DNA of 64,000 nt from Thunnus maccoyii (Eukaryota > Chordata > Actinopteri > Scombriformes > Scombridae): contig NC_056554.1 in assembly GCF_910596095.1 (NCBI RefSeq), forward strand, positions 3,534,001-3,598,000, in the 5' to 3' direction. Position numbers and translations under genes: made by a program. Below the pieces are notes generated by a model. It made no database searches. It was given only the letters and a program-made list of their open reading frames with translations, and had not been told where the DNA came from. Below are positions 631 to 51,035 of this stretch, in pieces (position 1 is the stretch's first letter; every line of letters starts with the position of its first letter).

Positions 631-2477
631 ATGATGGAAAGGATCTTACTGGGTGTCCTGTATCTCTCAGGTCAGTGAAATATTTAAAGGTATAATATGT
701 AACTTCTCCGCATTCTAATGTCTAAAAATGACTAGATCTATGTTATATATTTTGTTGAGTTGTGTTCAAACCCAGAGAAATCTGTAATTTCAATCAAGGT
801 AAGGGTCCGTTTCATTTGGTCGGCAGTTAATAGCATCATATCCCCTTTTTGCGTATGTCAGGGTTGTTGTTGTCTAGTAGAAGCTGTCATGAATTCAATT
901 GTATTGTTTAAGTCACATTTTTATGATAGACTTTTTAGACCTTGGTTTTAGATCTTTTAGTCGGGTGAAGGATTGTTAGTATTATATAGTATTATTTCAT
1001 TTTACTGTAATAGTTAAAAAATGTTAGTCACCTTACATGTTAAAAAGTGGTGTTTTCCTCACAGGCTGGTCCATCTTCTCCACATGTCGTCTCCATCAGT
1101 ACCACTTTGTTTCTGAGCGCATGGACTGAAGCTCAGACCTACTGCAGAGAGACATACACAGACCTGGTCACCATTGAAAACACTGAAGACATGAACCAAC
1201 TCATCAACACAGTTCCATCTGCTGGTAATAACAGTCAAGTCTGGATTGGCCTGTACAGAGTCATTGATTGGAAGTGGTCAGATGGGTACAGAGGGAGTGG
1301 AGCTGAATATAGGGACTGGGGATCACAAGATCCAGATTTCAGGACTGATGAACTCTGTGTAACCACTGGAAATTTTCGTCCTTCATGGTATGATGATCAT
1401 TGCACAGATACACGTTATTTCGTCTGTTATACTGGTACGTACCCAGCAACGCATTATTTCTTCTCTAATAATGATTATATTGAAGTTCAGGACTTCAACT
1501 CAAAGATTAATTTTCCCCCCAATAATTTATCTGCAGGAACACAGCTGGATCCTCAATTTGTTGATGTGAAAAAACGAAAGAACTGGTTTGATGCTCAGAG
1601 GTACTGCAGGGAGAACTTCATAGACCTGGCCACTGTGAGGAACGACACTGAGAACCGGGAGGTCAAGAATTTGGTGCCCAGTGTAGACTATGTATGGATC
1701 GGCCTGTACAGAGATCCTGGTATTAACTGGTCTGATGGCAGTACCTACTCGTTCACCAATTGGGGTGGTTCAGTTTCAGGATCACTCAGATCGGTGAAAA
1801 TGATGTGTGGTGTGCAGGAATCAAACCAATGGACGTTTATGTGCTGTGAAGAGAGATTTCCATTTGTCTGCTACAGCATCCCTCCTGGTGAGTGGTTTAC
1901 TGTCCTTCAGTGGAAGCCAGAGAATGCTGCATAACTTTAGCGTAAAACATGTTTGAATGTACATGAAAAAGTGTAAATATCACAGAACTAATATGACAGC
2001 AAATTAATGATTTATTTCTCCTCTCATTCTGTGTCTCAGCACCAGTAAAGAGGTGGGTAGTTAAGCTGAAGATGAAGGTGCAGGACTCCTCTGTGGATCT
2101 CAATGACCCTGCTATGAAAGCAAACATCCTGAAAAAGGCAAGTCTCCAAAATCCAGACTGGGTTAGGGGCTGGGGGTGTCTCAAACAGGTCTAGAATACT
2201 TGTTTACATGCTTATTCTGCTTGATGTGTTTTGCCACTAGGAAGTTTGATTATATCTAAAAACCAATGGGGGGTTTTAGACACAACAACAACAACACAAT
2301 AGGGGGGATGAATGTTTCAAAATGGCTTCCATCTGTGTTTCCTAGTTCCAGGACAGACTGAAGGAGCAAGGAGTGAGTGGAGTCACCCTGAAGTGGAGAG
2401 AACAGCCTGATGGGAAAGTCTTCCACAAGGAGGGAAAAGAAGAGAAGAAGAAAAAAAGAAAGAAGACTGAGCTCTGA
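631..2477 (+). pseudogene. Lectin L1: two-CTLD C-type lectin, frameshifted in exon 2
   Basis: Five exons: 631-670, 1065-1434, 1537-1887, 2040-2137, 2346-2477. Exon 1 encodes the leader MMERILLGVLYLS. Exon 2 is CTLD1, with YCRETY, a WIGLYR motif, a DPD triplet at 1329-1337 and the closing cysteines. Exon 3 is CTLD2 (YCRENF, WIGLYRDP, FVCY). Exons 4-5 encode a tail ending in a lysine/arginine run and KKTEL. Compared with L3, five bases are missing after 1123, so the native frame hits TGA at 1127-1129 and CTLD1 is lost. The downstream exons are otherwise open. Intron 2 is 102 nt, divisible by three and free of stops, so a long open frame runs from 1047 to 1934 through exons 2 and 3. Intron 4 begins with GC. 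Such proteins bind sugars or act in innate recognition in fish, but no ligand can be read here. Confidence 0.85.
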
Positions 2478-2654
2478 AATGAAAACCCAGCTTTACTTAT
2501 CTGTAATCCATGTTGAATGTTGATTCTCTATCTGCTAACAATATACTATCATCAGCTTAACCGTAACCTTGACTACATCCTGTATAGAAGAGTTTTATCC
2601 TTCCTCATCAATATTACTGTGTGAAGTGTTTCAATCAAAGTCACTTTTATTCCA

Positions 2655-2660
2655 AATAAA
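2655..2660 (+). promoter_or_regulatory. Poly(A) signal of lectin L1
   Basis: AATAAA lies 178 bp after the L1 stop codon. The same context recurs after L3, L4, L5 and L6. Confidence 0.6.
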
Positions 2661-2997
2661 ACATATGAGATGAGTCTTTGGCTTCAAGTTTACAGTGTGT
2701 GAACCAACCTGATAAAAGCAACAGACACACAGTTATGGCAGTGATTTATTGCAGAATAATAAAGTAATCTAGGTGATAATGGGAGCACTGGTAGTCTGCA
2801 AAGGCCTTCCATCCAAACTTTTGAAATCTGTAGACTTCTGTTGCTGCACTCAAACAAAAATGCTTTAGAAAAAGGCAAGAGTACTAAGAAAAGACACAAC
2901 TGACACATGTGTGAAAAAGTGTGAGTATCTTATATAGATAATATGATATAGGCTGACACAGCAAAATGTATCCACTTCACATTCCCTCCATGACAGC

Positions 2998-3580
2998 CAG
3001 TGGAGGAAGAAGTTTTTACATCCTTTACTTCAAAGCAGCAATACTACAATATAACATAAGTATGATGAGTAAAACGTAGTAGAAGTATAACAAGTGAAAA
3101 TAGTGGTTGTGCAGTGACGTTAATATGACATTATTAGATTATCAATACTGATGCATCAGTGCGTGAACAACATTTTATTGTTGTAGCTGGTTAAGGTGGA
3201 GCTAGTTTGAACTACTTTATATACAGCAAACTTAACTGTAGGTAGTTAAGTCCAGTGGTTCCCAACCTAGGGGTTGGGCCCCTCCAAAGGGTCCCAAGAT
3301 AAATCTGAGGGGTCGTGAGATGATTGATGGGAGAGGAAAGAGGTTAAAAGACAAATGAAACACTGGTTTAATCTTTAATGTGTTGTATTTTATATCATGA
3401 GTGTTTTTATGTTAAATAAAATATTCTGTACAGTAACTAGTGACTATAGGTGTTAAATAAATGTATAATATTTCCTCAAATATTGTGGAATATAAGTGGC
3501 TAAAAATGGAAACATTCAAATAGAGTACAAGTACCTCAAAATTGTACTGAAGTAAAGTATTTGAGTAAATGTACTTAGTT
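2998..3580 (-). mobile_element. Non-autonomous DNA transposon (MITE), CAGTGG...AAGTAC family
   Basis: The sequence begins cagtggaggaagaag and ends with gagtaaatgtacttagtt. It matches, from memory, a very common fish element about 570 bp long whose ends are rich in AAGTA motifs. It carries no ORF. It is interrupted by a nested element at 3253-3365. The same composite occurs at 23995, 30983 and 51569, so it was amplified with the lectin unit and did not insert independently each time. Strand is by similarity to the remembered consensus. Confidence 0.6.
3253..3365 (+). mobile_element. Nested hAT-like MITE (CAGTGGTTCCCAACC type)
   Basis: This 113-bp element begins cagtggttcccaacc and ends cactg. 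It is flanked by gttaagtc and gtttaatc, a degenerate 8-bp target duplication as expected for hAT transposons. It sits inside the older MITE. Copies at identical nested positions are at 24250, 31238 and 51821. Confidence 0.6.
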
Positions 3581-5162
3581 TGTTGTCAGATGAAGACAGG
3601 AACATGTCATGTGACTGAGCACCTCTGTTATTTTACACACCATTGGACAAACTATGTGCTCCTACAAACATGGTTGTGAATGTCACACCAAACCTCTGTA
3701 AATATGTCAGGTCTAAATAATTACACACAACTAAAGAATATACAGATACATAGTGGGATTATAGTTAATTATCAGTGACTGCATGAGCACATACTGTGTT
3801 TCATATTGCATACATGCTGAGCTCTCCACGTATCTGTGTGTGAGAATTAAAATGCAACACTGCACTCTTGTGTTTGCATGTGTGTATTGTTGGCTTCAAA
3901 GTGAGAGTCTAGTAAATGCGGGAACAAAGTGAGAGACAGACATGTAAAACAAGAGGGGAGGATGTGATTTGTTGTTGTAGTTTTACTGAACTACAGCTGA
4001 TTGCATGTTACCCTTTAGAAATAATCTCACTACCATAGGATCATTAAAATGGTTTGCTTGAGAAAACATCTGAAATATCTTCATTTTAGAGGAGTCATTG
4101 AGCCTCTCCTGTATTTCTCTCTTTGTTGGTAATGATTTACTGAGTCCTATTGCATTTCCACATGAGATGCTTGAGAGAATTTGAGGAAGACAGATAACAG
4201 AGAGAGAAAATAAAACATGTTTTGAGTTCAGTAAAGTGACTTATTTGGATGTAGTTTGGTTAAACTAAGAACTTGTAGTTTTGTATTGATTTGCAGCCTT
4301 GTAACATTTAGATAGGAGCTGTGTTAAGTGGCCTTTTTTGACACAAATGATAATGATGTAATAATAAACAACTCATCTTAATCTGGTTTCTTGGAGAGTG
4401 GATGTCACCCTTCGGTGATGAATCCTTCCGTGACCATGAACCTGGGAAGAATCTCCTGTGTGTCTGACACAGTTAGAGTGTAAGGTTGATAACAGAGATG
4501 GGGGGAGAAATTACTCACCTTGCGCAGCATTTCTGGGGAAGAAACTCAGGCACAGCGCAGATGAGTAGAGGAGAGAACACCTGCTGCCAAACGGGCTGCC
4601 TGCATGAGAAAGATGTAAGATGAGAGGCCAGACAAGAACGAGCAACAGACATCATTTTTACCTTTATTTATCTCACCTGAGATGGGGAGACAGAAGCAAC
4701 CCCCTCCCCAGTGTGGTGCCTCTAACACCTGGAACACACAGCCTACCTTCACCTGAACAGTGTGTGTGCATCGCTGAACTGCTGCGGCTCGCACACCTGC
4801 AGTGTCCACACAGACAGCGTTGCTAACAGAATGTTTCATATCATTTCATTTGCATTTAGTTTAGATAGTAAAAGGTTAAGAAGTGTGTGCTAACTCTGAG
4901 GGGCATGGTGGGGTCAAGTTAGGTCTACTAGTTAGCTCTCACAGCATTGTTATCTTCACTCTTTATTATTTCTTTCTTTATTTATTTATTTATTATTCTT
5001 CCGTACATTTTTTGACCAGTAACTACTCCTACATACTTTCAGCTACAAAAACCATTCATATATCCAAACATTAAGCTTTTTTCAGATATTTTTACATTTT
5101 TACAATGTAAGTGAATGGCAGAAAATGACACACATACATGCATACTGTCCCACATACTGTAC

Positions 5163-5163
<1 letters not shown>
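3581..5163. other. Intergenic sequence with a conserved unclassified block
   Basis: I see no convincing gene here. The stretch recurs in unit 4 (31566-33148). The part from about 4430 to 4850 is somewhat richer in G and C and is almost unchanged at 32440-32840. It has an open frame of 97 codons on the minus strand, but its composition does not resemble a known domain. Confidence 0.4.
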
Positions 5164-5203
<40 letters not shown>

Positions 5204-5247
5204 TTTATTTGTATTGCACCTTTCATACAAAAAATGCAGCTCAAAGT
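5164..5247 (-). repeat. (AAT)n run joined to an L2/SINE-type 3' tail
   Basis: A run of AAT triplets leads into aactttatttgtattgcacc and a segment ending gcagctcaaagt. In reverse complement this is the familiar fish tail in which a short conserved stem is followed by AATAAAG and a TTA repeat. Only the 3' tail is present. The run is shorter in the second copy at 33149. Confidence 0.6.
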
Positions 5248-5404
5248 ATAAACTGTACATATTGTACATACATACTGTACATACATACATACATGCTGTA
5301 CATATATAGATATATACATGTTGTGTCTGTACATGCGCATACAGTAACACAAACTGACATAGAAACACACACACATACTAAAACACACATTACTGACACA
5401 TAAA

Positions 5405-5556
5405 GACAAGAATTGTTTTTTCTGTCTTTATGAAGACTTTTATTCACACACACACACAAACTGTTTTTTCTATCTTTATCAGGACCTTTACTGACAAACA
5501 CACACACACACAAACTGTTTTTTCTATCTTTATGGGGACCTTTACTGACAAACACA
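5405..5556 (+). repeat. Minisatellite of about 55 bp, three units
   Basis: Three imperfect tandem units share aactgttttttctatcttt followed by an ACTGACAAACACACA-like segment. A second copy of the array lies at 33382-33535. Confidence 0.6.
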
Positions 5557-5987
5557 ATGCGTTTCAGTTAAAATCAGCTTTTTTTAAAAAGCTGTTATCA
5601 GAATTGCTTCAGCAATTTCTTTAAGCTTTCAGCTTCCAATGAATTTCACCCTTCATCATTCACAGCTGCTTGCAGAGGCAGCAGTGGTAGCAGTAGCTGG
5701 CAGCAGCAGCAGCTGACAGCCTCCAGCTCTCTTATGCATCCATCTTGTTGGTTATACTGATTATTTTACCAGTTAAACCCCCACTATCATCGCTGCAAGT
5801 GAAGAAAATCCCTCCAGATGACACCAAATTCCTCAAACAAGCCAAACACACTCAAACAAACCTCCATACTAACTGTCAGGAGGGAAACTCACAACAAATA
5901 AGGAAAATAACACCAAATCTCAGTCTGGAAGCAGGTAAATCAACAGGCAGACCAAAGTAAAAGATGGTGAACATGGAGGTGAATGAT
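5557..5987. other. Intergenic, nothing recognised
   Basis: A CAG-rich stretch near 5665-5730 and a 71-codon open frame at 5745-5960 are present, both repeated in unit 4 (33722-33937). The frame has no recognisable domain and I do not call it a gene. Confidence 0.35.
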
Positions 5988-5995
5988 AGTCCTGG

Positions 5996-6897
5996 TTAGG
6001 GGTGTAACGGTACACCAAATTCATGGTTTGGTATGTACCTCGGTTTTGGGGTCACGGTTCGGTACGATTTCAGTACAGCAGGAAGAAAAAAGAAAGGTAG
6101 AAAATACCATTTTGGTCTTTCATTTTGAAAAATGTAAACATCCAACAATGGCTCATTGACTATAACTATTACTGAAGCAGTTTAGTTTTACTGCTGTGGA
6201 AAACAGAAAACAACCTTTATGTTTCTTGCAAGGAGTCAGGACACCTGCTGACAGCTGTTTTATGTTGATTTATGGTCTAACTGTATATAAAGTAATTCAA
6301 ACTAGCTCCACCTCCAGTAGCTACAACTGTAGCATGCTGCTGACAAACTGGTGCTTCATATTAATAATCTAATGATTTAATATATAATAATATATCAGTC
6401 AGAGGGACCAAACCACTTTTACTTTAATACATTATAACTAAATGTTTCTCTCTCAGAACTGGTTCTTACGACGTGCTGTCTGAACACATCAGAAATCAAA
6501 TAGTTGTTCTGAACGACGAAAAACGAACAAACGAAACGAACGAAAAGCCGACCATCACAGAGAGGGGAGGGGGACATGGTATTGTTTCATTAAGGAGATA
6601 AAGGCACATATTTTAATGGTAGTGTTGCACTTGGTCAGTATTATGGGTCACTTGTTTGTCATTCTGATGGCAGGGTAACCCAGGCTACCTTGGCTAAGCT
6701 GGCTAAAATACCAATGAGTATGTTAGGAACTCATGCTCTAGAGTTATTGTTCCTTATGTCGGACTAAGTGGATTATTAAACTATTTTGACAGTAATTGTC
6801 AAGGTCACGGAGCGTATTCTTCGTACAACTGGATGCACCGAACCGTAATGTCCGTACTGTGACGGTTCAGGACGAATACATGTACTGTTATACCCTT
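5996..6897 (+). mobile_element. hAT-like non-autonomous element with 8-bp target duplication
   Basis: The left end reads ttaggggtgtaacggtac, and the right end is its imperfect inverse (gtactgttataccctt). Both sides carry agtcctgg (5988-5995 and 6898-6905), an 8-bp target duplication. There is no transposase. An internal part, about 6290-6440, resembles the MITE family at 2998 in opposite orientation, so a further nested insertion is likely. A second copy with the same target duplication is at 33973-34877. Confidence 0.7.
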
Positions 6898-6905
6898 AGT
6901 CCTGG

Positions 6906-7784
6906 TGTAATTAATGACAGCTTAAGGCTGTGGCTGTGAGTTCAGTGGGTTTCTGGGCAGTTCATGTCTTACCAGTGTCCTGATAATCAAGGCTATGCTC
7001 TCTTTTTATTTTTTCCCACATGTTGGTTTGGGGTCTCGCTGTCCTGGAGAATCTTACCGTCAGATTTCACGGGGAATGCAGCATCACACACAGGGTCTAA
7101 GGGCTCTAAAGCTCAGATTATTAGAGTGGGGGTTCAATAGCATTTTATTCAAACCTGAATCCAGTATGCAATTTATTTTGATTTAACTTTTAAGAATTGT
7201 AAGTAACAACCAACATTTTTTCAAGTTTCCTTTTTGCCAGAATTTTGAAGTTTGCTAACAGCATTGTGGATCAAGTCTTGAATAGAGAGAAAGTCTTTTC
7301 ATCCCTCTTTTCATCTATGTATTGACTAGTCTCTTAGTTTCTTTGGTAAAACATCTACAGTATGAGACTGTTAAATTTGTTCAGAAGACACATGTTTTGT
7401 GTTGGAGTAAACAGACATTAGCAGTTTGAAGCTATAGCTCTCACAGTCATGTTGTTTAATATGAAAAGAGTCTTAATTTACCCATTTTCAATTCAGAGCA
7501 AATTCATCTTAGTTATGTGAAGGTCAGTTGAATGGGATTATCTAATGTAACAGGTTCAATGTCAAAGTTTGTAAAATACATGGCTGTCAAACTAGAAAGA
7601 GTTTCTTCTGACTTCCTGTGCATTAACATGTGTATCCAATCCAGAGCAGAGTACCTGATCCTCGTCTTTATGATTTCAACACTGGCAGCACAAACACAAA
7701 CAGGCAGATGACTCAGCAGTTTCATCATTTTTGGACACCAGCCTCTTGCATTCAGTTTCTTCACATCCAGTCGTCGTTTTACAG
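6906..7784. other. Sequence upstream of the AFAP1-like exons
   Basis: The last bases form the acceptor ttttacag of the first AFAP1-like exon, so at least the 3' part was intron in the source gene. I looked for further AFAP1 exons, such as PH-domain coding sequence, and saw none. The stretch recurs before the copies at 25991 and 35745. Confidence 0.4.
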
Positions 7785-8632
7785 ATGTGGAGCAGCGTAA
7801 GTACAGGAAGAACTGCGTGGAGACTGACGCCAAGTGGCTGCAGGCCAAAGAAGAAGAGCTGATGATGAAGCTGATAAAGAGGGAAGAGCTGATGAAGAAG
7901 AAGCAGGAGATCAGGAACCATCTGACTCATCTAAAGAAGGAGAGGAGAGAACTGCGCACTGCTGTGGAGGCTGCTGCTGGTAAAACACATAGACTTCTGT
8001 TGAAAAAGTGCTTGTTGTTAAATGACAAAGCTTTATTGTGTTTTAAGATTCAATCCAAAAGTGTTTATAGCTGTTCAAAATTGAAAGTTACAATAATCAT
8101 AGGACTCTGAAAGATGTGTGGGGAGGGGGTTTCACACATCATATGAAGAAAAAGGTCTCGAATGTGGGGAAAGCTCTCAAACCTCTCCATTCAAGATGTT
8201 ACCATGTACAAGTTTATTAACATGATAAAAATCCTGTCTCTCTTTCTCCATTAGGCAAACGTTGTCATGGCTCCCTGTCGGAGCGACTGAAGAAGGTGGA
8301 GGATGAGTGCAGGCAAAGGGAGGAGGAAAGGGTGAACCCGGAGCTGGAGCTGATGAAGGTGAAGGAGAGTCTGAAGAAGGCCCTGAGTGGAGGCGTCACC
8401 CTTGGCCTCACTATCAAACCAAAAGCTGGCTCCTCTGACCTCCAGGTCAGAACACTGAGCTGTACTATGCTGTCTTTTACTGTCCTGTGGTGCTTCATTA
8501 CTCCCACAGCAGTTTACATTCAATTGCAAACAACTACCTGCATGCCGCCATTACCTGTCTAATTTTTTCCGTCTGTGTATATGTGTGTGTGTGTGTGTGT
8601 ATATATGTGTGTGTGTGTGTGTGTGTGTCTGT

Positions 8633-8671
<39 letters not shown>

Positions 8672-9882
8672 TAGTCACTGGTGATGTTGCGACAGACCCA
8701 GGAGTCTTCTCCCTTCTCCAGCTGTTACACCAGTGACACTGAGTCCTGCTCCCTGCTGGTCAACAGTGCCTCACTGCTCCGTCGGCAGCAGGGCGGCCAG
8801 AAGGCCTCACCAGTCCGTGGACACGTCCTCAGGAAGGCCAAGATCAGAGCTCACAATGTAGATTGGGACCAGACTGATGTATAATGGTTTGCAATATACT
8901 GGGACAGTTTTGGCAGTCCTGTTTCAACATGAGTCCCCTCATGCACAAAGTTCATGAGGACATTTTCCCACTTTGAGTGGAATTAACACATCGTCTTATC
9001 ACCCAACATCAGTGTTGGATCTCACTAATGCTCTTGTGGCTGAATGGGATCAAATCCCTGAAAATAATAATTACTCATTTTTACTATATTTTTTATGACC
9101 AGTGTAGTACCTGTAGTACTGGAAACTGTGTTAAGTCACAATAACTAGTATATGGATCAGCAAACAGGGAAAGAAGAACATCACACTTGCGGCAGCAATG
9201 CCACGCCAAGCTGTGTGTCAGGGTGGAGAGAGGAGGAGAGGAGGAGCAGTGTGTCAAACACAACACACTAGAAGTGAAGCTATTCTATCTTTTTCACTTT
9301 TGGACAAAAATAAGTTTGTGTTTGTGGTTTGAACATTTAATCCACTACAAACTCCCCTTTAAATCATTGAAATCCTGCAGCACATGTTCATCAAGCCAAG
9401 TTTTATTTAGACTTTTTTATTTATTCTGACAAGTTTGAGGCTAGAGTAGGCAAGTGCCGAAAATGTTTGAAAAAATAATCTTTTTTGCTCATTTTCTAAA
9501 ACTATTTTCTTCTATTATTTTCTGTGTTGCACAACATTACGTGCATATTTGATTGAATTTCAGCTGTTTTTCCTCCACAATGTTATTAATGGTTTTTAAC
9601 TCACATGTATTATTTATGTGTATTTTAATTGTGTTTACTTTTGTCTAATGTTTTATCTTGTAAACTATCCACATAGTGTTTGTGGCTGCAACGTCCCTGG
9701 TAGCTCAGCTCTGTGAAGCACATTGTGCTTCTTCCTGGAATGAAATGTATGATATAAATAAAGTTTTGTTTGCTTTCTTCATAATGTCAAAGTCAAATCC
9801 ATGTAAATGTGGAGCATGCAAACTAAGTGTGTGTCTCTGTTTGTTTGTTTTGCAGGAATGGGAGCAGAAGAACAGCACATAA
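7785..9882 (+). pseudogene. afap1: AFAP1-like C-terminal exons, copy 1 (fragment)
   Basis: Four exons: 7785-7979, 8255-8445, 8675-8842 and 9856-9882. Exon one is a charged coiled coil (KWLQAKEEEL, RNHLTHLKKERRELR). Exon two reads [20 protein letters not shown] and [17 protein letters not shown]. Exon three has TSDTES, LVNSAS and RGHVLRK. Exon four reads EWEQKNST then stop. The order and the ending KAK-EWE..KN-T match, from memory, the C-terminus of actin filament-associated protein 1, an adaptor that cross-links actin and binds Src. Phases agree at every junction. The PH domains and upstream exons are absent, so this is a partial duplicate. The donor after exon three is mutated from GT to AT (8843-8844), which would prevent normal joining to exon four. 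Confidence 0.75.
8582..8670 (+). repeat. (GT)n microsatellite in the acceptor tract of an AFAP1-like exon
   Basis: A long interrupted GT run ends directly in tttgtag, the acceptor of the exon at 8675. Copies of this run differ in length between units. Confidence 0.85.
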
Positions 9883-10296
9883 ACCTCTCAACTCCTCACA
9901 TCAGTCTCATGTTATTTCCTCATTTTTCTTTTTGAGAAATTGTGTTTATATTTATTTTAACTGTTCATACAGTCTGAGAGCATGTTGAGGACACAAGCAT
10001 AGCATTCACATGAACCAGAAGTTGCCTGTTTTAGTAAACTGTAAGTACCACAACATACAGAAATAGCAACCTTTTGAAACTTTTATACTATGGAGCATGT
10101 TTAGTGCACAAACGTTCTTCTTCAAGCAACCACCAGTCTCTTTGTTTCCTTTTCACTCAAAATCTGATTCAGTTTGGGTTCAAAAAGGTCAGAACCAAGT
10201 ATTTATTTGTAAGTGTTTAAAGGAAATACTAGCTTCCCTTTGTTTATTTATGTTGATGTATTTAAAGTGTTTTACTTACTATATATTTGTGTATGT
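9883..10296. other. 3' flank of AFAP1-like copy 1
   Basis: No gene is seen. The sequence after the last AFAP1-like exon is shared by all eight copies of that exon and probably derives from the source gene's 3' UTR. Upstream of the exon, 9682-9780 resembles an L2/SINE 3' tail (GTGAAGCAC...AATAAAG). Confidence 0.4.
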
Positions 10297-10297
10297 G

Positions 10298-10364
<67 letters not shown>

Positions 10365-10434
10365 ATGACTTCAAAATCTTGCTGTCCAATATGTTTCAAC
10401 ATGCCACAACCTGAGGGACAGTGAATGACCCACA

Positions 10435-10484
<50 letters not shown>
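10297..10484 (+). repeat. Compound (TA)n(GA)n and (CA)n microsatellites
   Basis: A TA run (to 10320) passes directly into a GA run (10321-10360), and a CA run follows at about 10432-10484. They lie immediately upstream of the truncated Tc1 copy, as in units 4 and 6. Confidence 0.85.
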
Positions 10485-10487
<3 letters not shown>

Positions 10488-10533
10488 TACATGCATAAGA
10501 TATACTATATATAATTAATATATATCAATCTTA

Positions 10534-11076
10534 ATGTTGGAGAAGTACCACTCCATTCTTCAGAGACATGCTGTACCCTCTGGTTTGCAATTTGTTGAGA
10601 AGGATTCATACTGCAGCAGGATAATGACCCCAAACACGCCTCAAAGCTTTGCAAGAACTACTTGAAGACCAAAGAAGACCAAGGAGTCCTGACTGTCATG
10701 GACTTTCCTCCACAGTCACCTGACCTCAACCCCATTGAACATTTATGGGGACACTTGAAGACTGAGAAAGCCAAACTTTCTGTGACATCACAAGAAGCTC
10801 TTTGGAACATTGTCAAATCCTGCTGGGATAATGAGGCTCATCAGGTTTTCAACAGACGTGTGGAGTCCATGCCAGCTGGAGTGCATGATGTCAGTAAAGT
10901 AAAAGGAGGAAATACTAAGATATTCTGAAATTTATGTACATTTTTCAAAGATTAAAATTTTCACTCAAATTGTTAAGCTGATATTATTATTTGTAATGAA
11001 ATAAATTGTATTACATTCAGAACAAATGCAAAATAGAAGTATCTTGACAAGAGGTCTCAGACTTTGGATCCCACTG
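10534..11076 (+). mobile_element. Tc1-like transposon, 5'-truncated, copy 1
   Basis: The translated part holds the C-terminal half of a Tc1 transposase: a DNDPKH motif region, DFPPQSPDLNPIEHLWG with the third catalytic acidic residue, and a stop at 10928. A frameshift separates the first part from the second. The end ttggatcccactg at 11064-11076, followed by TA, fits a terminal inverted repeat. The N-terminal DNA-binding part, the first catalytic aspartate and the left terminus are missing. Confidence 0.75.
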
Positions 11077-11393
11077 TACATGTACATCCTTTTTTTTCAT
11101 TTTCTGGAGTCTCGTCCTGTGTGGAATCTTAGGAAACACTTGTGTTTGTTGGTAAACCAGAGATGATCATCACACTTTCTGCACTTTGCATAAGAAATAC
11201 AATATATTTGTATGCATCTATTCAACCCTTTAGACTATAAAATGTACTTGTGTCTGTTATTGCCAGTGAGTAGTAGATAGCAAAAACATGAACCAGATCA
11301 TCATTTTACACAATAAAACATCACCATTATTTAGAATGTCTTAACATTTACACTAACTGCACTAATTATGTCTCGAGGCAACACATAAAAAAT
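11077..11393. other. Intergenic, nothing recognised
   Basis: AT-rich sequence shared with 20395, 38936 and 59605. No open frame or RNA gene is visible. Confidence 0.4.
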
Positions 11394-38258: not shown

Positions 38259-38321
38259 ATGACTTCAAAATCTTGCTGTCCAATATGTTTCAACATGCCA
38301 CAACCTGAGGGACAGTGAATG

Positions 38322-38352: not shown

Positions 38353-38360
<8 letters not shown>

Positions 38361-38408
38361 AATACATGCATAAGATATACTATATATAACTGATATATAT
38401 CAATCTTA

Positions 38409-39676: not shown

Positions 39677-40085
39677 AAATAGTCCCAATGAAAACTGAAG
39701 GCAGAAATCTCAGAAAAACATAAAGACAAATACAACTGAAACTCTGCACACTAGATACGACTGGAGGTAAGTGAGAAATAAAATATATATATTTTGTAGT
39801 TGAGATGAATTGATCCCTTCAAATCAACACCTTTGCACACGACCAAAGTGTGAATCTGAAAAAACAGCCTCAAAAATACTCTGCGGGTACTTGTACAATG
39901 TTTTGGAGACAAACATTTCCATATGTGTAAATACTTTTTGCATACAGAATGCAGCAGAACAGTGACTTTTGCCCCTAACAGAGAAGAGAAGCTGGTGTTG
40001 TATTTGTCTAGATTTGCCTAAGAATAAGCTAAGCTAATTCCTTTCAACAGTGAACATCGACACACAGAGACCTCAAAGCAGCATC

Positions 40086-43000
40086 ATGATGGAAAGGATC
40101 TTGCTGGGTGTCCTGTATCTCTCAGGTCAGTGAAATATTTAAAGATAGAATATGTAACTTTTCCGCATTATACTGTTTAAAAATGACTAGACCTTTGTAA
40201 TATATTTTGTTGAGTTGTGTACTTACATCATCCCAAATGCTTCCAGCAATGTTCATACCCAGAGAAATCAATAATTTTAATCAAGGTAAGGGTCTGTTTC
40301 ATTTGGTCGGCAGTTAATAGCATCATATCACCTTTGTATGTATGTCAGTGTTGTGGTTGTCTGCCAGAAGCTGTGAATAATTGACTTTTCAAGCCACATT
40401 TTTATGATACACTTTTTAGATCCTGGTTGTTTTAACTATATCTTTTGACCAGATGAAGGATTTTAGTCATCGGATGTTTGGATCTTAAGTTATCAGAGAA
40501 ACAAGCTGAGCAAACATTAACAGCAGCTCAGCTCACAGCCCCTCTGGACGTCTTGTGTCTGCTAAACAGTGTGGGAGAAACACTAATTTTTAAGGTGAAA
40601 CTGCTTTATTCAGTGTTTTTACTGGTTTCAATCAGCGGGTCTGTTTGTTTTGGAGAGGAGTAGACCTCTGTGGATAATTTGGCTCCTGGTAAAAACCTCC
40701 TGAACGATGAACACTGAAGGAATCCTAACCGGGAGAAGCTCACTGCAATGACTGCAATTGTAGTTGTTTCATGATGAAGACAACAACTCCCATGATCCCA
40801 CACTACTTCATTATGTCATCAAACTGTATTTCATTATTGTTTTAATTAAGAGACCACTAGCAGCAGAAATGACATATTGTGTGTAAATAATGTCTAACAG
40901 TGTTTATTATTTCATTATACTGTGATACTCAAAAATGTTAGAGTCACCTCATATGTTAAAAAGTGGTGTTTTCCTCACAGGCTGGTCCATCTTCTCCACA
41001 TGTCGTCTCCATCAGTACCACTTTGTTGCTCAACGCATGAAGTGGACTGAAGCTCAGACCTACTGCAGAGAGACATACACAGACCTGGTCACCATTGAAA
41101 ACACTGAAGACATGAACCAACTCATCAACACAGTTTCATCTGCTAGTCAGGTCTGGATTGGTCTGTACAGTAACATTGATTGGAAGTGGTCAGATGGGTA
41201 CAGAGGGAGTGGAGCTGAATATAAGAACTGGGAAAATCTTGATGACAATGAGCCAGACTTTTACGGGGGTAAGCAGTTTTGCGTGAACATTGGAAACAGT
41301 GGAAGATGGTGGGATGATGGTTGTGCAATTGAATATCCATTCATCTGTTATAATGGTAAGTAACAGCAAAGCCTGTTTTCTTTCTTTAACCTGCATTAAC
41401 AGATTTTTTGGCCAATTGGGAGCAGTGGAAAGATGTGATGAACACAACATTGTTGTTGCTTATTTACACATCCAGAAATTGTGGAGCAACATTATCAAGT
41501 CCAATATTCACTCTCTGTCAGTTCTGTTTTTGCTCTCTACCAACTCCTGAGGGAAATATCTGGCTCTTTAGCTGCTAAATGTTCCACTATGTTCACCAGC
41601 TAGTTGTTAACTGTGTGTGTTTGCAGCTTGATGCTGAGCAGGTAGTGTACAGTGAGTTTTTAGAACCAGCTGTGGCAGAAAACAACACTGTGAGAGCGCT
41701 GAGAGTGTATAAAGCTTTGTAAAGCTGAGCTGCAGTCTGGTGATAATTCTCTGTAGGTTCATCACTACGAGCGACATGTCTGACATTACATGTTATCATT
41801 TGATACATTGTTAACATGAAAATATTGATTATAGCTGCTTTAACATTATTTAGAAACTCAGTATATCAACAATTCCACTCACCCCCCAAACTAACCACAG
41901 GAACACAGCTGGATCCTGAATTTGTTGTTGTGAATCAGAGTATGACCTGGTCCAATGCTCAGAGGTACTGCAGGGAGAACTTCATAGACCTGGCCACTGT
42001 GAGGAACAACACTGAGAACCAGCAGATCCACAACTTGGTGCTGACGAAAGACTGGACATGGATCGGCCTGTACAGAGATCCTGACTCCTTCCTTTATAAC
42101 TGGTCTGATGGCAGTCCCTACTCACTCACCACATGGGGTGATAAACATTCAGTTTCAGGATCACTCAGATCGATGATGTGTGGTGTGCAGGAATCAAACC
42201 AATGGACATTTAAGTCCTGTGAAGAGAGATTTCCATTTGTCTGCTACAGCATCCCTCCTGGTGAGTGGTTTACTGTCCTTCAGTGGAAGCCAGAGAATGC
42301 TGCATAACTTTAGCATAAATCATGTTTGAATGTACATGAAAAAATGTAAATATCACAGAACTAATAGGACAGCAAATGAATGATTCATTTCTCCTCTCAT
42401 TCTGTGTCTCACTAACAGTAAAGAGGCAGGTAGTTAAGCTGAGGATGAAGGTGCAGGACTCCTCTGTGGATCTCAATGACCCTGCTGTGAAAGCAAACAT
42501 CCTGAAAAAGGCAAGTCTCCAAAATCCACCCTGAAAGTGTTACAAACAGTTTCAAGGTGACATATGTGGGAGCAGGTGTGCAGGTGTAGAAAGAGATTTT
42601 TATGCACCCACAGAAACCTCAGTAGTGCAGAACAGAAAGCAGCCATGACCTTTGATACAAAAGAGATAATTATTAATTAATTAAACTATTGATCCTTTTG
42701 TGATCTTGATATAACAAATGATTATTCCAGTGTGATAATAATAGGCTTTATTTTCTTGTGACTGTACAATCATTATCTCATGATCACATGAAATGATAAA
42801 AACTGTCTCCACATGTTCATGGAAAATTTCCTTCGTAAATTGTTTTTGCCTCTTAAGAGAAAAGTCCACACCAACTTCTCCCATAAATTATTTTAAGATC
42901 AGGATCATAAAACAATAACACAAAGGTTTATCATGTGATCACAAGATGTTTTCAAGATGGTTTTCATTTGTGTTTCCAGTTCCAGGACAGACTGAAGGAG

Positions 43001-43111
43001 CAAGGAGTGAGTGGAGCCACCCTGAAGTGGAGAGAACAGCCTGATGGGAAAGTCTTCCACAAGGAGGGAAAAGAAGAGAAGAAGAAAAAAAGAAAGAAGA
43101 CTGAGCTCTGA
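40086..43111 (+). CDS. Lectin L5 (B type): intact two-CTLD lectin, 332 aa
   Basis: Exons: 40086-40125, 40981-41355, 41901-42260, 42419-42510, 42980-43111; the sum is 333 codons. The leader is MMERILLGVLYLSG. CTLD1 has WIGLYS, an EPD triplet at 41250-41258 and WWDDGC, and lacks three codons of the SSAGYNSQ segment. CTLD2 has WTWIGLYRDP, a two-codon-longer YRDPDSFLYNWSDG loop, and FVCY. The usual exon 4 acceptor, tctcag, reads tctcac here. The next AG (actaacag, 42411-42418) is exactly 6 nt downstream and keeps the frame, changing the junction to PP-V-KRQVV. Intron 4 has a GC donor and a sequence different from the A copies, from about 42528. Introns 1 and 2 hold repeats. The TATA-like box of A copies is absent, so expression may differ. 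L2 is its decayed sister. Confidence 0.85.
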
Positions 43112-43345: not shown

Positions 43346-43381
43346 GGAGGGAAAAAGAGAGAAAGAAAACTGAGCTCTGAA
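43346..43381 (+). pseudogene. Lectin last-exon tail relic after L5
   Basis: The segment gggaaaaagagagaaag followed by aaaactgagctctga is the end of a lectin exon 5. It is joined abruptly to the L5 3' flank at 43345. In L2 the same tail is fused directly to exon 3. Confidence 0.65.
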
Positions 43382-43594
43382 ATTTAAATCCATCTGAAAG
43401 CCGTGTTTGATGTTGATTTTTTATCTAATACTTATAAAACACTAGTAGTTATCAGAATAGAGGATTTAACCATTACTTGCTATTTAGATGTGGCTTTGGC
43501 TTCAATTGTTTTAGTATAAAAATGGTAATTTCATCACTATTACTCTGTGAAGTGTTTTAATGAAAGTTGATAAATTTCCTGCAGAATAAAACAT

Positions 43595-44519
43595 CTATAA
43601 AAGAAACATTTTGGTCCTGAACCCTTCAGCAAAAGGCAACAGAAGCACTAACCAGTGTTTACCAGTACTGAGAAAAATGCATCAACAATATTCATATAGG
43701 AAGTCATTACTGTGTAACTGTACCTTTTGAATAAGTCATCACTGGATGAAGACACACAGTATTTTAAATGACAGGTTACCTGTGTGGGAATAAAAGTGCA
43801 ACACTGCCCTCCTGTGTTTACATGCGTTTATTGCCTTTGAGAACAAAGAGTTGAAAAATTGTGGGAAGCAAAGACAAACATTTGAATTTCATTGAACTCC
43901 TGCTGTAAAACACACAACACTGTGTGTGTGTGAATCATAAGTGATGAGTGGACAAAACCTTTATGTCTTTATTTTGTTCATGTGAAAGCCATGTTGGATG
44001 TTGATGTCCTATCTACAGTCTGTTTCCTAGAAATGACTTTTAGATTCTACTAAACTGCACCAGCAAATATGTTTAGCAGGAAATGTAATGTTGACCCAGT
44101 TATGTTTTCTGTCAACATAATGAGTAAAATGTTCAGTGACAACAAAATATACAATCTTGCAGTACAATATCCACTTGGACTGACTAGTCTACAGCATTAC
44201 TGAACTTTTTGATGGTTATGTTTAGGCACTTGGTGGAGGTTAGGGGAAGATCATGGTCTTTGTGTAAAACAGAAAACATCTGCAGTGACTGGACGCACGA
44301 GACACAACATATTTTCATTCACTTGAAAAACATCACCTGTGAACATAATCATGTTTGTGAAAGCAACATACATGAGAAAACAATTTAGTCATATATTCTA
44401 GTCAACAGGGTTGCTACAGTACTTATACTATTACCGGAAGTTATAAGAGTAGAGAACTTAACCATAACTTGACTTGACAAGACTATATATACAGCTTACA
44501 ATAAAGCAAAATGTCTCAC
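43595..44519. other. Intergenic, nothing recognised
   Basis: Counterpart of 14610-15539. Confidence 0.4.
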
Positions 44520-45236
44520 TAGAAAACAGTTACTGATCCAAAAACGGAAACAACAACAGTGTACAGATCAAGTGTACTTTGTGACACAGTATAGTGGTGA
44601 AGCAAATAGAATTAAACAAATCATTAAAAGAAACTGGGACATATTGAAAAGTGACAATTCTCTTAAAGAAGCTCCTCCAGATGCCGCTACCATCAGCTTC
44701 AGAAGAGCTCCAACCCTTACTGATAAACTTGTGAAGAGTCATCTCCCCTTGTACAACAGAAAATTTGGTTAGGCATCAGGGCAGGTAACCACAAGTGCTG
44801 AGATTAAAATCATTGTGGTAATATGACCAATACCAACTACTTTACTGATATAACATCAGGTCGTAATTTATAAATTGCAGTTCCTCATATGTGGTTTACA
44901 GACACTTGACTGAACATAAACATGCTATAAGAACTGGCAACTCCCCATAACCGATGGCTCTACATTATAAAGAGGCTGACCACAGCAGCGGCAATTCTCT
45001 AAAGCTATCAGACATAGACCATATAGCAAACTGAATAAGGGGTGGAGACCGATTAAAAAGGTTCTTACAGAGAGAATTCTTTTGAATATACACATTGAAA
45101 GCTACACAACACCCTAGTTGAATGAGGAACTTGACTTCTCTCCTTTTCTGTAATTGTCTTTGATTTAGGTATCTGGGTTCATTGAACAACGTCAAGTGCC
45201 GTCTTGCTTGTGTGTACTAAAAACTTAAAAATTGGG

Positions 45237-45284
<48 letters not shown>

Positions 45285-45610
45285 AGTTTATTACCGTTTT
45301 TTGCCTTGACATTCCTTGATATTACGTAAATGCTTTGATGTGTGGTTTCCTCTGATGAACCGTATCTGTCATGTGACTTCACCAGTCTACATTAATCATG
45401 TTACTATTACCTGTCCATATTGATCATGTGATTACTTGCCAACATATATAAGAAGCAGCCTAAGGGCGACCATTTTGTACTTGCCCTGATGAAGGTCTTA
45501 ACGGCTGAAAAGCATAGGCATGTTTTTAACTATGACTAAGAAGCCATGAAATATTAAAGGCTTTTTAAATTCATTACAATCTTGAGTGCCTCAGATCTTT
45601 TCAATAACTC
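44520..45610 (+). mobile_element. Penelope-like retroelement remnant, copy 2
   Basis: Near-identical to 15540-16600: the same open linker (44572-44772, FRRAPTLTDKLVKSHLP), the same decayed GIY-YIG end and the CCTGATGAAGG tail. It carries an (AT)n run at 45241-45281 and a few extra bases near 45456-45475. Confidence 0.65.
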
Positions 45611-45698
45611 ATTACTGTCTGAATGATTAGAATTTGATTTTATTTTCAAAAACAGCGGGCACATGGTTGTTCAGATTACAAGTTCAGCTGAAGCTGAA

Positions 45699-46014
45699 TG
45701 AGGCTTCAGCAGTGTGAGTTGGTGTGAGAGTGGCTATTAGCCCAGAAAAAACACTGGCAATAAACCTACATGACTACCGAGACATACATACCCACTCTAT
45801 CTGACTAACTGACACTGCTGAAGCCTCAAATCACCAACATAGTTTTGAGTAGAGGGGGACCAAGAACCAACCTCTGGGGCTCAAAAATGAAGCCAACGCA
45901 GGAGTGCCAAAAACTGCAGTTCCTTGAATAGCCACTTGAGGCTCCAAAAGCGAATCAATCCTCATAGACCCCCTTGTAAAGATGCCCAACTTTACAGCAG
46001 AAATAAACATGTAC
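45699..46014 (-). repeat. Inverted repeat plus reversed right part of a fish repeat, unit 5
   Basis: The 17-bp arms are 45699-45715 and 45812-45828. The reversed repeat part runs from about 45841 to 46014. Layout is as in unit 2. Confidence 0.5.
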
Positions 46015-46270
46015 AATCAAGTTGTTTTAATCCTTCACCTCTCATGTTCACACATGTCATTTGATACATTATTATAAAGACGTACATTATTCCAAAGAAA
46101 TTGATCTTAACAAATCAAATCAAATTTTCACAAAGTAATTATTTTATATTCTCAAGAGCTCAAGTTTATTATGTTGTGATCAGTTTTTTTTTTACAGATT
46201 GAATGTTGAAATCATTCATGTCTTCTCTGGGTTTCCAATAAAGTCGATGGCTTCCATTTGTGTTTCACAT

Positions 46271-46405
46271 TTCCAGGATAGACTGAAGGAGAGAAAAGCC
46301 TGGTGGGAAAGTTTTCCACAAGGAGGGAAAAAGAACTTAAGTCCGAGAGAAAGAAAACTGAGCTCTGAAATTAAAATCAAACTACGGCTAACGGGAAACC
46401 TATGA
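46271..46405 (+). pseudogene. Lectin last-exon relic in unit 5
   Basis: Sister of the relic at 17268 with the same internal deletion and lost acceptor. A poly(A) signal follows at 46559-46564. Confidence 0.7.
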
Positions 46406-46673
46406 CGAATACTGATTCTATCTGCTAATAAAATGTACACACAGTTCACTGCCTTGTAGTTATCAGAGCACTAAACCATAACTTAGTACAAACTAGTCCT
46501 TTATCAATACTACTGTGTGTGATGTTCATAACTCCTAATGAAATGTAATCCTCTCCAGAATAAAACATATCTATGGATTGTTGCATTTGCTTCAAGTTTA
46601 CAGCAGTGCCAGTAAGTTCAAGTCTTATTTTGCATTGAGTTGTGCATTTTTAAAGCCACAAGAGGGCAGGCCA

Positions 46674-46745
46674 TGCTTAGCTTAGCTTAGCTTAGCTTAG
46701 CTTAGCTTAGTTTAGCTTAGCTTAGCTTAGCTAGCTTAGCTCAGC
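46674..46745 (+). repeat. (GCTTA)n pentanucleotide repeat, unit 5
   Basis: Longer than the unit 2 run and interrupted by gtttag and a four-base slip. Confidence 0.9.
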
Positions 46746-47241: not shown

Positions 47242-48426
47242 TCACCAGCAATGTTGTGACAGACCCAGGAGTCCTCTCCCTTCTCCAGCTGTGACACCAG
47301 TGACACTGAGTCCTGCTCCCTGCTGGTCAACAGTGCCTCACTGCTCCGCTGGCAGCAGGGCGGCCAGAAGGCCTCACCAGTCCGTGGACACGTCCTCAGG
47401 AAGACCAAGGTCAGAGTTCACAATGTAGACTGGGACTAGAGTGATGTATAATGGTTTGCAGTATTCTGGGACAGTTTTGGCAGACCTGTTTCAACATGAG
47501 TCCCCTCATGCACAAAGTTCATAAAGACATTTTCCCACTTTTGAGTGGAATTAACACATCGTCTTATCACCCAACATCAGTGTTGGATCTCACTAATGCT
47601 CTTGTGGCTGAATGGGATCAAATCCCTGCAGCCAGGTTCCAACATCTTATGGAAAGGAAAACTATTTATTTTACAGCCTGGATTTTATTTTTGTAGCTCT
47701 GACTCATGGTTCTGTCAGTTATGATGACATCATACTCACCAAAATATTTACTCATTTTTACTATATTTTTTATGACCAGTGTAGGACCTGTAGTACTGGA
47801 AACTGTGTTAAGTCACAATAACTAGTATATGGATCAGCAAATAGGGAAAGAAGAACATCACACTTATGGCAGCAATGCCACGCCAAGCTGTGTGTCAGGG
47901 TGGAGAGAGGAGGAGAGGAGGAGCAGTGTGTCAAACACAACACACTAGAAGTGAAGCTATTCTATCTTTTTCACTTTTGGATAAAAATAAGTTTGTGTTT
48001 GTGGTTTGAACATTTAATCCACTACAAACTCCCCTTTAAATCATTGAAATCCTGCAGCACATGTTCATCAAGCCAAGTTTTATTTAGATTTTTTTATTTA
48101 TTCTGACAGGTTTGAGGCTAGAGTAGGCAAGTGCTGAAAATCTTTGTAAAAATAATCTTTTTTGCTCATTTTCCAAAACTATTTTCTACTATTATTTTCT
48201 GTATTGTACAACATTATGTGCATATTTGGCTGCAACGTCCGTGGTAGCTCAGCTCTGTGAAGCACATTATGCTTCCTCCTGGAATGAAATGTATGATATA
48301 AATAAAGTTTTGTTTGCTTTCTTCATAATATCAAAGTCAAATCCATGTAAATGTGGAGCATGCAAACTAAGTGTGTGTCTCTGTTTGTTTGTTTTGCAGG
48401 AATGAGAGCAGAAGAACAGCACATAA
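47242..48426 (+). pseudogene. afap1: AFAP1-like copy 4, last two exons only
   Basis: The third exon equivalent is 47242-47409 and the last exon 48400-48426. The acceptor tttgtag is gone; the GT run passes directly into the exon. The sixth codon is TGA (47257-47259). The donor aag-gtcaga is intact here, unlike in copies 1 and 2. The last exon reads gaa tga. Confidence 0.7.
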
Positions 48427-48728
48427 ACCTCTCAACCCCTCACATCAGTCTCATGTTGTTTCCTTTTTTTTCTTTTTAAGAAATTGTGTTTATATTTATT
48501 TAAACTGTTCATACAGTCTGAGAGTGTTTTGAGGACACAAGCATAGCATTCACATGAACCAGAACAAGTTGCCTGTTTTAGTAAACTGTAAGTACCACAA
48601 CATACAGAAATAGCAACCTTTTGAAACTTTTATACTATGGAGCATGTTTAGTGCACAAACTTTCTTCTTCAAGCAACCACCAGTCTCTTTGTTTCCTTTT
48701 CACTCAAATTCTGATTCTGTTTTACTTA

Positions 48729-48729
48729 C

Positions 48730-48828
<99 letters not shown>

Positions 48829-48896
48829 ATGACCTCAAAATCTTGCTGTCCAATATGTATCAACATGCCACAACCTGAGGGACAGTGAATGACCCA

Positions 48897-48931
<35 letters not shown>
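48729..48931 (+). repeat. (TA)n(GA)n and (CA)n microsatellites, unit 5
   Basis: A TA run to about 48750, GA repeats to 48824 and CA at 48898-48931, then a direct jump to the L6 promoter region. Confidence 0.8.
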
Positions 48932-48934
<3 letters not shown>

Positions 48935-49107
48935 TACATGCATAAGATCATAAGAAGAATATTCTGTGGGTACATGCCAATGTTTTGGAGACAAACATTT
49001 ACATATGTGATACTTTTTGCATACAGAATGCAACAGACCAGTAACTTTTGCCCCTAACAGAGAAGAGAAGCTGGTGTTGTATTTGACTAGATTTGCCTAA
49101 CAACAGC

Positions 49108-49114
49108 TAATATA
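49108..49114 (+). promoter_or_regulatory. TATA-like box of lectin L6
   Basis: taatata 76 bp before the start codon. The extra distance comes from a 12-bp tandem duplication (cagagcagcatc) just before the ATG. Confidence 0.35.
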
Positions 49115-49183
49115 GAGGCAGAGTTTCCTTTTAAGAGTAAACATCGACACACAGAGACCTCAGAGCAGCATCAGAGCAGCATC

Positions 49184-51035
49184 ATGATGGAAAGGATTTT
49201 GTTGAGTGTCCTGTATCTCTCAGGTCAGTGAAATATTTAAAGGTATAATATGTAATTTTTCCACATTCTAATGTCTAAAAATGACTAGACCTTTGTTATA
49301 TATTTTGTTGAGTTGTGTTCAAACCCAGAGAAATCTGTAATTTCAGTCAAGGTAAGGGTCTGTTTCATTTGATTAGCAATTAATAGCATCATATCCCCTT
49401 TTTGCGTACGTCAGTGTTTTTGTTGTCTGGTAGAAGCTGTCATGAATTGAATTGTATCTTGTTTTAAGCCACATTTTTATGATACATTTTTTAGACCTTG
49501 GTTTTAGATCTTTTAATTGGATAAAGGATTTCAGTCATCAGACGTATTATTAGTATTATATAGTAAAATTTCATTTTACTGTAATAATTACAAAATGTTA
49601 GAGTCACCTTACATGTTAAAAAGTGGTGTTTTCCTCACAGGCTGGTCCATCTTCTCCACATGTTGTCTCCATCAGTACCACTTTGTTGCTCAACGCATGA
49701 AGTGGACTGAAGCTCAGACCTACTGCAGAGAGACATACACAGACCTGGTCACCATTGAAAACACTGAAGACATGAACCAACTCATCAACACAGTTTCATC
49801 TGCTGGTAATAACAGTCAGGTCTGGATTGGCCTGTACAGAGTCATTGATTGGAAGTGGTCAGATGGGAGTGGAGCTGAATATAGGAACTGGGCATCCAAT
49901 CAACCAAGTTTAGGCACTGATAAACTCGGTGTAGTTATTGTAAACAGTCGTCCCTCATGGGACATTCATTCTTGTACACATGAACATTATTTCGTCTGTT
50001 ATAATGGTAAGTACCCAGCTAAGCATCATTTCTTCTCTAATAATGATTACATTGAAGTTCAGAACTTTAAATCAAAGATTCATTTTCCTCAATAATTTAT
50101 CTGCAGGAACACAGCTGGATCCTCAATTTGTTTTTGTGAATCAACCAATGAACTGGTCCAATGCTCAGAGGTACTGCAGGGAGAACTTCACAGACCTGGC
50201 CACTGTGAGGAACAACACTGAGAACCAGGAGGTCATGAACTTGCCAGGTACATACTGGACATGGATCGGCCTGTACAGAGATCCTGACATTAACTGGTCT
50301 GATGGCAGTGCCTACTCGTTCAACAGTTGGAGTGGTTCAGTTTCAGGATCACTCATGAAAATGATGTGTGGTGTGCAGGAATCAAACCAATGGACATTTA
50401 AGTCCTGTGAAGAGAGATTTCCATTTGTCTGCTACAGCATCCCTCCTGGTGAGTGGTTTACTGTCCTTCAGTGGAAGCCAGAGAATGCTGCATAACTTTA
50501 GCATAAATCATGTTTGAATGTACACGAAAAAGTGTAAATATCACAGAACTAATAGGACAGCAAATGAATGATTCATTTCTCCTCTCATTCTGTGTCTCAG
50601 CACCAGTAAAGAGGTGGGTAGTTAAGCTGAGGATGAAGGTGCAGGACTCCTCTGTGGATCTCAATGACCCTGCTGTGAAAGCAAACATCCTGAAAAAGGC
50701 AAGTCTCCAAAATCCAGACTGGGTTAGGGGCTGGGGGTGTCTCAAACAGGTCTAGAATACTTGTTTACATGCTTATTCTGCTTGATGTGTTTTGCCACTA
50801 TGAAGTTTGATTATATCTAAAAACCAGTGGGGGGTTTTAGACACAACAACAACACAATAGGGGGGATGAATGTTTCAAAATGGCTTCCATTTGTGTTTCC
50901 CAGTTCCAGGACAGACTGAAGGAGCAAGGAGTGAGTGGAGTCACCCTGAAGTGGAGAGAACAGCCTGATGGGAAAGTCTTCCACAAGGAGGGAAAAGAAG
51001 AGAAGAAGAAAAAAAGAAAGAAGACTGAGCTCTGA
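49184..51035 (+). CDS. Lectin L6: two-CTLD lectin, 325 aa, altered CTLD1
   Basis: Exons: 49184-49223, 49641-50006, 50107-50448, 50601-50698, 50904-51035; the sum is 326 codons. The leader is MMERILLSVLYLSG. CTLD1 is open but unusual. The Y-R-G of WSDGYRGSG is deleted, the triplet is QPS (49901-49909), and the conserved cysteine of the ELCV segment is glycine (GGT, 49928-49930). The WND position reads WDI. The disulfide that closes the binding loop is therefore probably lost. CTLD2 is complete, with NLPGTYWTWIGLYRDP and KSCEERFPFVCY. The tail and the GC donor of intron 4 match the other copies; intron 2 is 100 nt. The frame is intact, so either the protein tolerates a changed CTLD1 or decay has begun. 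Confidence 0.85.

Follow-up and report, generated by a model that had tools for sequence, protein, structure and literature searches.

Short exon segments that differ radically between duplicated genes, while the introns remain alike, have been described in snake venom gene families under the name of accelerated segment switch in exons (ASSET), whose mechanism is called not yet understood in that description (PMC2711939). Exon segment switching is, then, already known from venom genes, and the locus presented here is a further case: an array of lectin genes of the fish Thunnus maccoyii, contained in a stretch of 64,000 nucleotides of contig NC_056554.1 (positions 3,534,001 to 3,598,000; hereafter, the window). 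The array consists of tandem, nearly identical genes of secreted type, each with two C-type lectin-like domains (CTLD1 and CTLD2), and six copies (L1 to L6) are found on the plus strand.

Apart from venom genes, the following systems are of interest for comparison: (i) the group F1 dual-CTLD proteins, reported from Fugu and zebrafish, with possible invertebrate relatives, and inferred to evolve quickly (PMC514892); (ii) the type II antifreeze proteins of fish, which share the CTLD fold; and (iii) the mannose receptor family. The lectins of the array resemble group F1 in being of soluble type with two CTLDs, a likeness drawn from the published description; the conceptual proteins of L4 and L5 show a short leader, two CTLDs and a basic tail, with no membrane segment visible by eye. 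As in the array, type II antifreeze genes have introns that are very similar (identity of up to 97%), and their silent rate does not significantly exceed the non-silent rate, but there the comparison is between species and is explained by lateral transfer, and no segment island within one array features in that account (PMC3499448). Members of the mannose receptor family are the top sequence matches in the PDB, namely the IgY receptor for CTLD1 of L5 (4.4e-24) and of L4 (1.7e-25), and DEC-205 for CTLD2 of L4 (2e-28), E-values that sum over the many domains of each receptor. Nevertheless, the IgY receptor, DEC-205 and Endo180 are large multi-CTLD receptors, unlike the present proteins with their two CTLDs and basic tail. 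Among the literature matches listed, as judged from titles and abstract openings, none dealt with gene conversion in dual-CTLD lectins of fish, and a search for relatives in viral contigs gave 7 pattern matches, none of which was confirmed.

A divergent segment in a conserved frame

Full copies follow a common exon plan: a short leader exon, one exon for each CTLD, and two exons that form the basic tail. The six copies are given below with the type of their CTLD1 loop (A, B, C or C') and the residues that they carry at the position of the classical EPN/QPD triplet.

631-2477, plus strand: L1, type A, DPD; exons 631-670, 1065-1434, 1537-1887, 2040-2137 and 2346-2477
12225-14399, plus strand: L2, type B, EPD; exons 12225-12264 and 13121-13504, and a truncated exon 3 from 14079
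21605-23461, plus strand: L3, type A, DPD; five exons
28580-30449, plus strand: L4, type C, QPD; exons 28580-28613, 29031-29405, 29506-29856, 30009-30106 and 30318-30449
40086-43111, plus strand: L5, type B, EPD; exons 40086-40125, 40981-41355, 41901-42260, 42419-42510 and 42980-43111
49184-51035, plus strand: L6, type C', QPS; exons 49184-49223, 49641-50006, 50107-50448, 50601-50698 and 50904-51035

The original prediction on this DNA stated that the triplet differs between copies and suggested that one binding loop has diversified in a conserved frame. Direct reading confirms the triplets (L1 DPD, 1329-1337; L2 EPD, 13399-13407; L3 DPD, 22310-22318; L4 QPD, 29300-29308; L5 EPD, 41250-41258; L6 QPS, 49901-49909), all of which fall at the EPN position in a MAFFT alignment with CTLD2 of Endo180; phmmer likewise aligns the QPD of L4 to the EPN of IgY receptor domain 2. 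The placement is less certain for type B, because in phmmer the EPD of L5 falls opposite EPN only for domain 2 of DEC-205, and it is the adjacent DDN of L5 that is matched to the EPN of Endo180 and of the IgY receptor. The difference between copies holds for four loop types and not for six independent states, since there is no exon 2 island between L1 and L3 (1/116 positions of the loop) or between L2 and L5 (3/125).

As a description, this picture of a conserved frame that contains a diversified stretch is correct. In the exon 2 alignment, pairwise counts show that the first part of the exon (about 250 nucleotides) differs by 1.6-5.6% in the 15 pairs, while the rest differs by 24-42% between loop types. 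The divergent stretch is wider than one binding loop, as it spans the last third of CTLD1, and separate variable blocks are present in CTLD2 (exon 3). Similarly, the introns are nearly unchanged within L1/L3, within L4/L6 (introns 1 and 2) and within L2/L5, but not between loop types: between A and C the difference is 7.5-7.8% for intron 1 and 11-12% for intron 2, and B stands apart from the other types in intron 1 by about 15% and a further 458-476 gap columns, with an intron 2 that can hardly be aligned. The copies hence show a patchwork of divergence levels. The variable tracts are as follows:

1324-1425, plus strand: divergent tract of L1, identical in L3 at 22305-22406
13388-13495, plus strand: divergent tract of L2, type B
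29303-29392, plus strand: divergent tract of L4, in which 28/90 bases are unlike L6
41239-41346, plus strand: divergent tract of L5, type B, 97.2% identical to that of L2
49904-49993, plus strand: divergent tract of L6
29544-29661, plus strand: variable blocks of CTLD2 (exon 3), in L4 coordinates, with conflicting site patterns

The background against which these tracts stand out is provided by the array itself. Self-comparison of the window reveals long duplicate blocks (468-8632 with 28417-36592; 8614-13856 with 36534-41707; 14377-17717 with 43358-46721; 1-3987 with 20975-24983; and 27617-32035 with 48227-52618), whose noncoding divergence amounts to 147/7141 (2.06%) for L1-L4, 70/3403 (2.06%) for L4-L6, 35/2995 (1.17%) for L1-L3 and 99/4946 (2.00%) for L2-L5. 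Against this background, the divergence of the exon segment is 13 to 15 times that of noncoding DNA in the same duplicate units (24/90 for L1-L4 and 28/90 for L4-L6). For L4-L6 the binomial probability is about 3e-25, a value that takes no account of the fact that the 90-base interval was chosen as the maximum. Among the eight intervals listed per pair, the top wholly noncoding ones of 90 bases hold 10 differences for L4-L6 and 12 for L1-L4. The 24 differences of L1-L4 lie at 1324-1413, and the next interval (15/90) straddles intron 2 and exon 3.

The likeness to ASSET is seen between L4 and L6, where the island is flanked by introns that differ at 3/407 positions (intron 1) and 0/102 (intron 2). 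Immediately after it, L4 and L6 are without difference over 29393-29543, which spans all of intron 2; introns 3 and 4 differ at 5/164 and 2/215 positions, respectively. In contrast to the venom case as described (PMC2711939), here neighbouring duplicates supply a measured background, together with some excess of silent change, and one copy (L6) has lost a framework cysteine, whereas three-finger toxins keep theirs.

Silent change, exchange and selection

Pairwise ratios of non-silent to silent change (dN/dS, or omega) were obtained by the method of Nei and Gojobori, with about 25 silent sites per pair in the loop part. Codon models were fitted with our own implementation on quartets of copies, leaving L2 and L3 out of the loop and of exon 3, and L1 and L2 out of the first half of exon 2. 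In the first half, the silent rate (dS) lies at 0.018-0.078; in the loop, it reaches 0.18-0.32 when A, C and C' are compared with one another and 0.69-0.80 when they are compared with B. In other words, between loop types the loop exceeds the first half roughly 5- to 40-fold in silent rate, on few sites. Third codon positions of the loop also exceed the background (5/38 for L4-L6, P 0.001; 8/38 for L1-L4, P 9e-7), not all of these changes being silent; for L4-L6, silent changes are estimated at 4 in 25 sites (P 0.0016 against 2.06%), two of them unambiguous. Because the silent rate itself is raised in the loop, the history of the segment is the simpler cause of its divergence. The expectation of a dN/dS higher in the loop than in its flank did not hold: under model M0, omega is 0.92 for the loop and 1.06 for the first half, neither of them different from 1, with tree lengths of 3.60 for the loop, 0.20 for the first half and 0.61 for exon 3. 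A raised loop dS, together with an omega not above that of the first half, therefore suggests that old segments persist within a frame that has been homogenised (conversion or exchange).

In our view, the array is probably best explained by old sequence types of the last third of CTLD1 and of the CTLD2 blocks, kept in a homogenised frame, with short tracts moved by conversion. Under this explanation, large units would have been duplicated recently (1-2% noncoding divergence) and the surrounding exon and introns homogenised, while the last third of CTLD1 and the CTLD2 blocks would persist in a small number of old sequence types; non-reciprocal exchange (gene conversion) would carry short tracts from one copy to another. 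It is possible that selection favours the upkeep of different loops.

Evidence of exchange was sought with our own versions of the PHI and GENECONV tests, on gap-free columns of five copies (L2 was left out, and the intron alignment of L5 is poor). The PHI-type permutation test gives p 0.0005 for the gene, p 0.0005 for exons 2 and 3 together, and p 0.0015 for exon 3. In exon 3, L1 and L4 have a common run at 29557-29652 (p 0.0006, or about 0.006 when corrected for 10 pairs), unlike the gene as a whole, over which L1 is closest to L3 (333/371 polymorphic sites). These conflicting site patterns in the CTLD2 blocks suggest exchange between copies. Exchange is accordingly supported for CTLD2 by site patterns, and for CTLD1 it is inferred from the level of divergence only.

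Several observations weigh against the explanation by old segments and conversion. Restricted to exon 2, the PHI-type test gives no significant result (p 0.94), and a donor of the L6 tract, sought in the 64-kb window, was not found, the best full-length matches there being the L1/L3 and L4 tracts, at 69-70%. Moreover, intron 3 of L4-L6 is not below the background, and the L1-L4 tract is less sharply bounded, because intron 1 (7.8%) and intron 2 (10.8%) are raised too. The silent excess itself is thin, since it consists of few, partly path-averaged changes: between L4 and L6, silently differing codons for the same residue are 2/17, and comparable fourfold sites 0/6. To this must be added that codon positions 1-2 account for 23/28 of the L4-L6 changes (P 0.057 against 2:1), and that the authors who described ASSET judged recombination an unsatisfactory cause for such short segments (PMC2711939).

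The main alternative is strong diversifying selection on point changes of the loop after duplication, without segment transfer, to which we give a minor but appreciable chance. Apart from the preference for codon positions 1-2, it is favoured by loop ratios above 1 in five pairs (L1-L4 1.75, L1-L6 1.40, L3-L4 1.63, L3-L6 1.31 and L4-L6 1.90) and by model M2a, which beats M1a on whole exon 2 (likelihood-ratio statistic, LRT, 24.9) and on exon 3 (LRT 28.3, 5% of sites, fitted on the exon as a whole). But significance is reached by none of the five (P 0.19-0.29 by Fisher's test and 0.11-0.28 by bootstrap), and the same is true of all loop pairs: omega ranges over 0.59-1.90 in the 13 pairs with a finite ratio (1.3-1.9 for A, C and C' compared with one another, and 0.6-0.9 in comparisons with B), compared with 0.09-1.44 in the 15 first-half pairs, and the L1-L3 and L2-L5 loops, without silent change, have no finite omega. 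For exon 3, pairwise values of 0.78-2.36 include no significant pair either, and the M0 omega of 1.28 is not different from 1. Furthermore, M2a presumes one silent rate and one tree, and exon 3 shows signs of recombination; the signal in exon 2 arises because segments of different depth are joined, since the loop alone gives an LRT of 0.34. In consequence, a warning is in order: a standard site test on the whole of exon 2 reports positive selection, which is gone when the divergent segment is fitted alone. Silent changes in excess of the background also speak against point changes alone; at this locus, silent sites start to tell segment transfer apart from selection acting on point changes. 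Selection for amino-acid change among A, C and C' is nonetheless possible, in view of the tilt of omega above 1 and of the codon positions.

Neutral decay, that is, a dying array whose unconstrained copies drift, seems improbable to us as the general explanation. It agrees with the disabling changes of L1, L2 and L3, with the loss of a framework cysteine in L6, and with quartet ratios near 1 in the loop, the first half and exon 3; but drift would hit the introns equally, and between L4 and L6 introns 1 and 2 are almost free of change beside an island of 31%. As the cause of the island, pseudogene drift was thus rejected, for these two introns did not drift. Decay could hold for the present state of the array together with the mosaic of old segments. 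A further reading goes beyond that mosaic: the array would be an exchangeable reservoir of C-terminal CTLD segments, with broken copies as conversion donors, providing germline variants of the binding surface in a constant frame. We regard this as an outside chance; if true, such a reservoir would be the counterpart in fish, built on a CTLD scaffold, of pseudogene-templated diversification.

A mutation mechanism targeted at adenines, the mark of diversity-generating retroelements, was also considered and rejected: among the changed loop bases of L4-L6, A is not favoured (A 6/31, C 4/20, G 10/24, T 8/39).

The calcium site of CTLD1

The CTLD1 and CTLD2 domains of L4, L5 and L6 (six domains) match PF00059 with 52.3-73.0 bits, for a cut-off of 22.6. 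In the reading of L1 to L5 the framework cysteines of CTLD1 are present, and in L6 the second one (Cys2) is Gly. The ligands of calcium site II, in the set given for Mincle (PMC7618208), belong to the triplet, a further Glu and the WND motif. According to the MAFFT alignment, the Asn of WND, a calcium ligand, is replaced in the six copies: by Tyr in L1, L3 and L4, by Trp in L2 and L5, and by Asp in L6. Two residues before Cys2, L1, L3 and L4 have Glu, L2 and L5 have Gln, and L6 has Lys (direct reading, the aligner having put a gap there). EPN is found in no copy. With the WND Asn lacking from every CTLD1 and no triplet in CTLD2, these lectins depart from the fish members of group F1, each of which is stated, though not as a formal definition, to have at least one CTLD with the calcium and carbohydrate residues (PMC514892). 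A complete Ca2+-dependent site II of the EPN/QPD type is absent from every CTLD1.

The idea that a loop which sets mannose versus galactose preference has diversified here is hence unsupported, with the WND Asn replaced in all copies and three of the six clearly broken. That the triplets tune the sugar binding of otherwise working Ca2+-dependent lectins appears highly improbable. The central Pro of the triplet, kept in the six copies, the WND Asp, kept in L1 to L5, and the Glu kept two residues before Cys2 in L1, L3 and L4 agree with such tuning; it is opposed by the replaced Asn, by Gln (L2/L5) or Lys (L6) at the position of the Glu ligand, by the lack of EPN and of a CTLD2 triplet, and by the three broken copies and the missing Cys2 of L6. 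Since no copy has a complete calcium site, canonical Ca2+-dependent mannose/galactose switching by CTLD1 would be unlikely, and a sugar switch was rejected as the main explanation on the same ground. The position given to the tract on the fold derives from sequence alignment only; candidate ligands of CTLD1 may be proteins, lipids, or sugars bound by another mode.

State of the copies and neighbouring sequences

Judged from conceptual gene models, three of the six copies are disabled (L1, L2 and L3), one is doubtful (L6) and two are intact (L4 and L5). The frame of exon 2 of L1 is shifted by a 5-bp deletion after 1121. L2 has an in-frame TAA at 14300 and has lost the end of exon 3; its exon 4 and usual exon 5 were looked for and not found. 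In L3, an in-frame TGA at 22301-22303 is separated by two codons from the DPD triplet. The conceptual proteins of L4 (329 amino acids) and L5 (332 amino acids) have no internal stop; in L5 the acceptor of exon 4 was set 6 bases downstream, because the AG of the usual acceptor is lost. L6 is open (conceptual protein of 325 amino acids), with three codons deleted in addition to the change of Cys2. GC-AG splice sites are found at intron 4 of L3, L4, L5 and L6, that is, in the four copies examined.

A further copy begins near the end of the window:

61009-61048, plus strand: L7, coding part of exon 1

The match at 60948-61149 comprises the leader exon (96% to L1) and the start of intron 1; homology ends at about 61149, and no later exon was found before 64000. 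By tblastn, no other CTLD exons beyond those of L1 to L6 were found on either strand of the window at E < 0.1. What is left of the last lectin exon, with the 3' end, can be recognised at 17243-17431 and 46283-46434 (matching at 75% over 150-158 bases, and at 91% over a 46-base piece), which suggests older lost copies beside L2 and L5.

As regards mobile sequences, 59098-59493 holds a transposase fragment (DDE_3 match, 1.1e-10), which we take to be of the Tc1/mariner type; the same C-terminal stretch occurs in the open reading frame at 19755-20246. Finally, a long open frame at 63235-64000, without a Pfam match at E up to 0.1, ends in a motif that presumably resembles the tyrosine recombinases of DIRS/Crypton-type elements.

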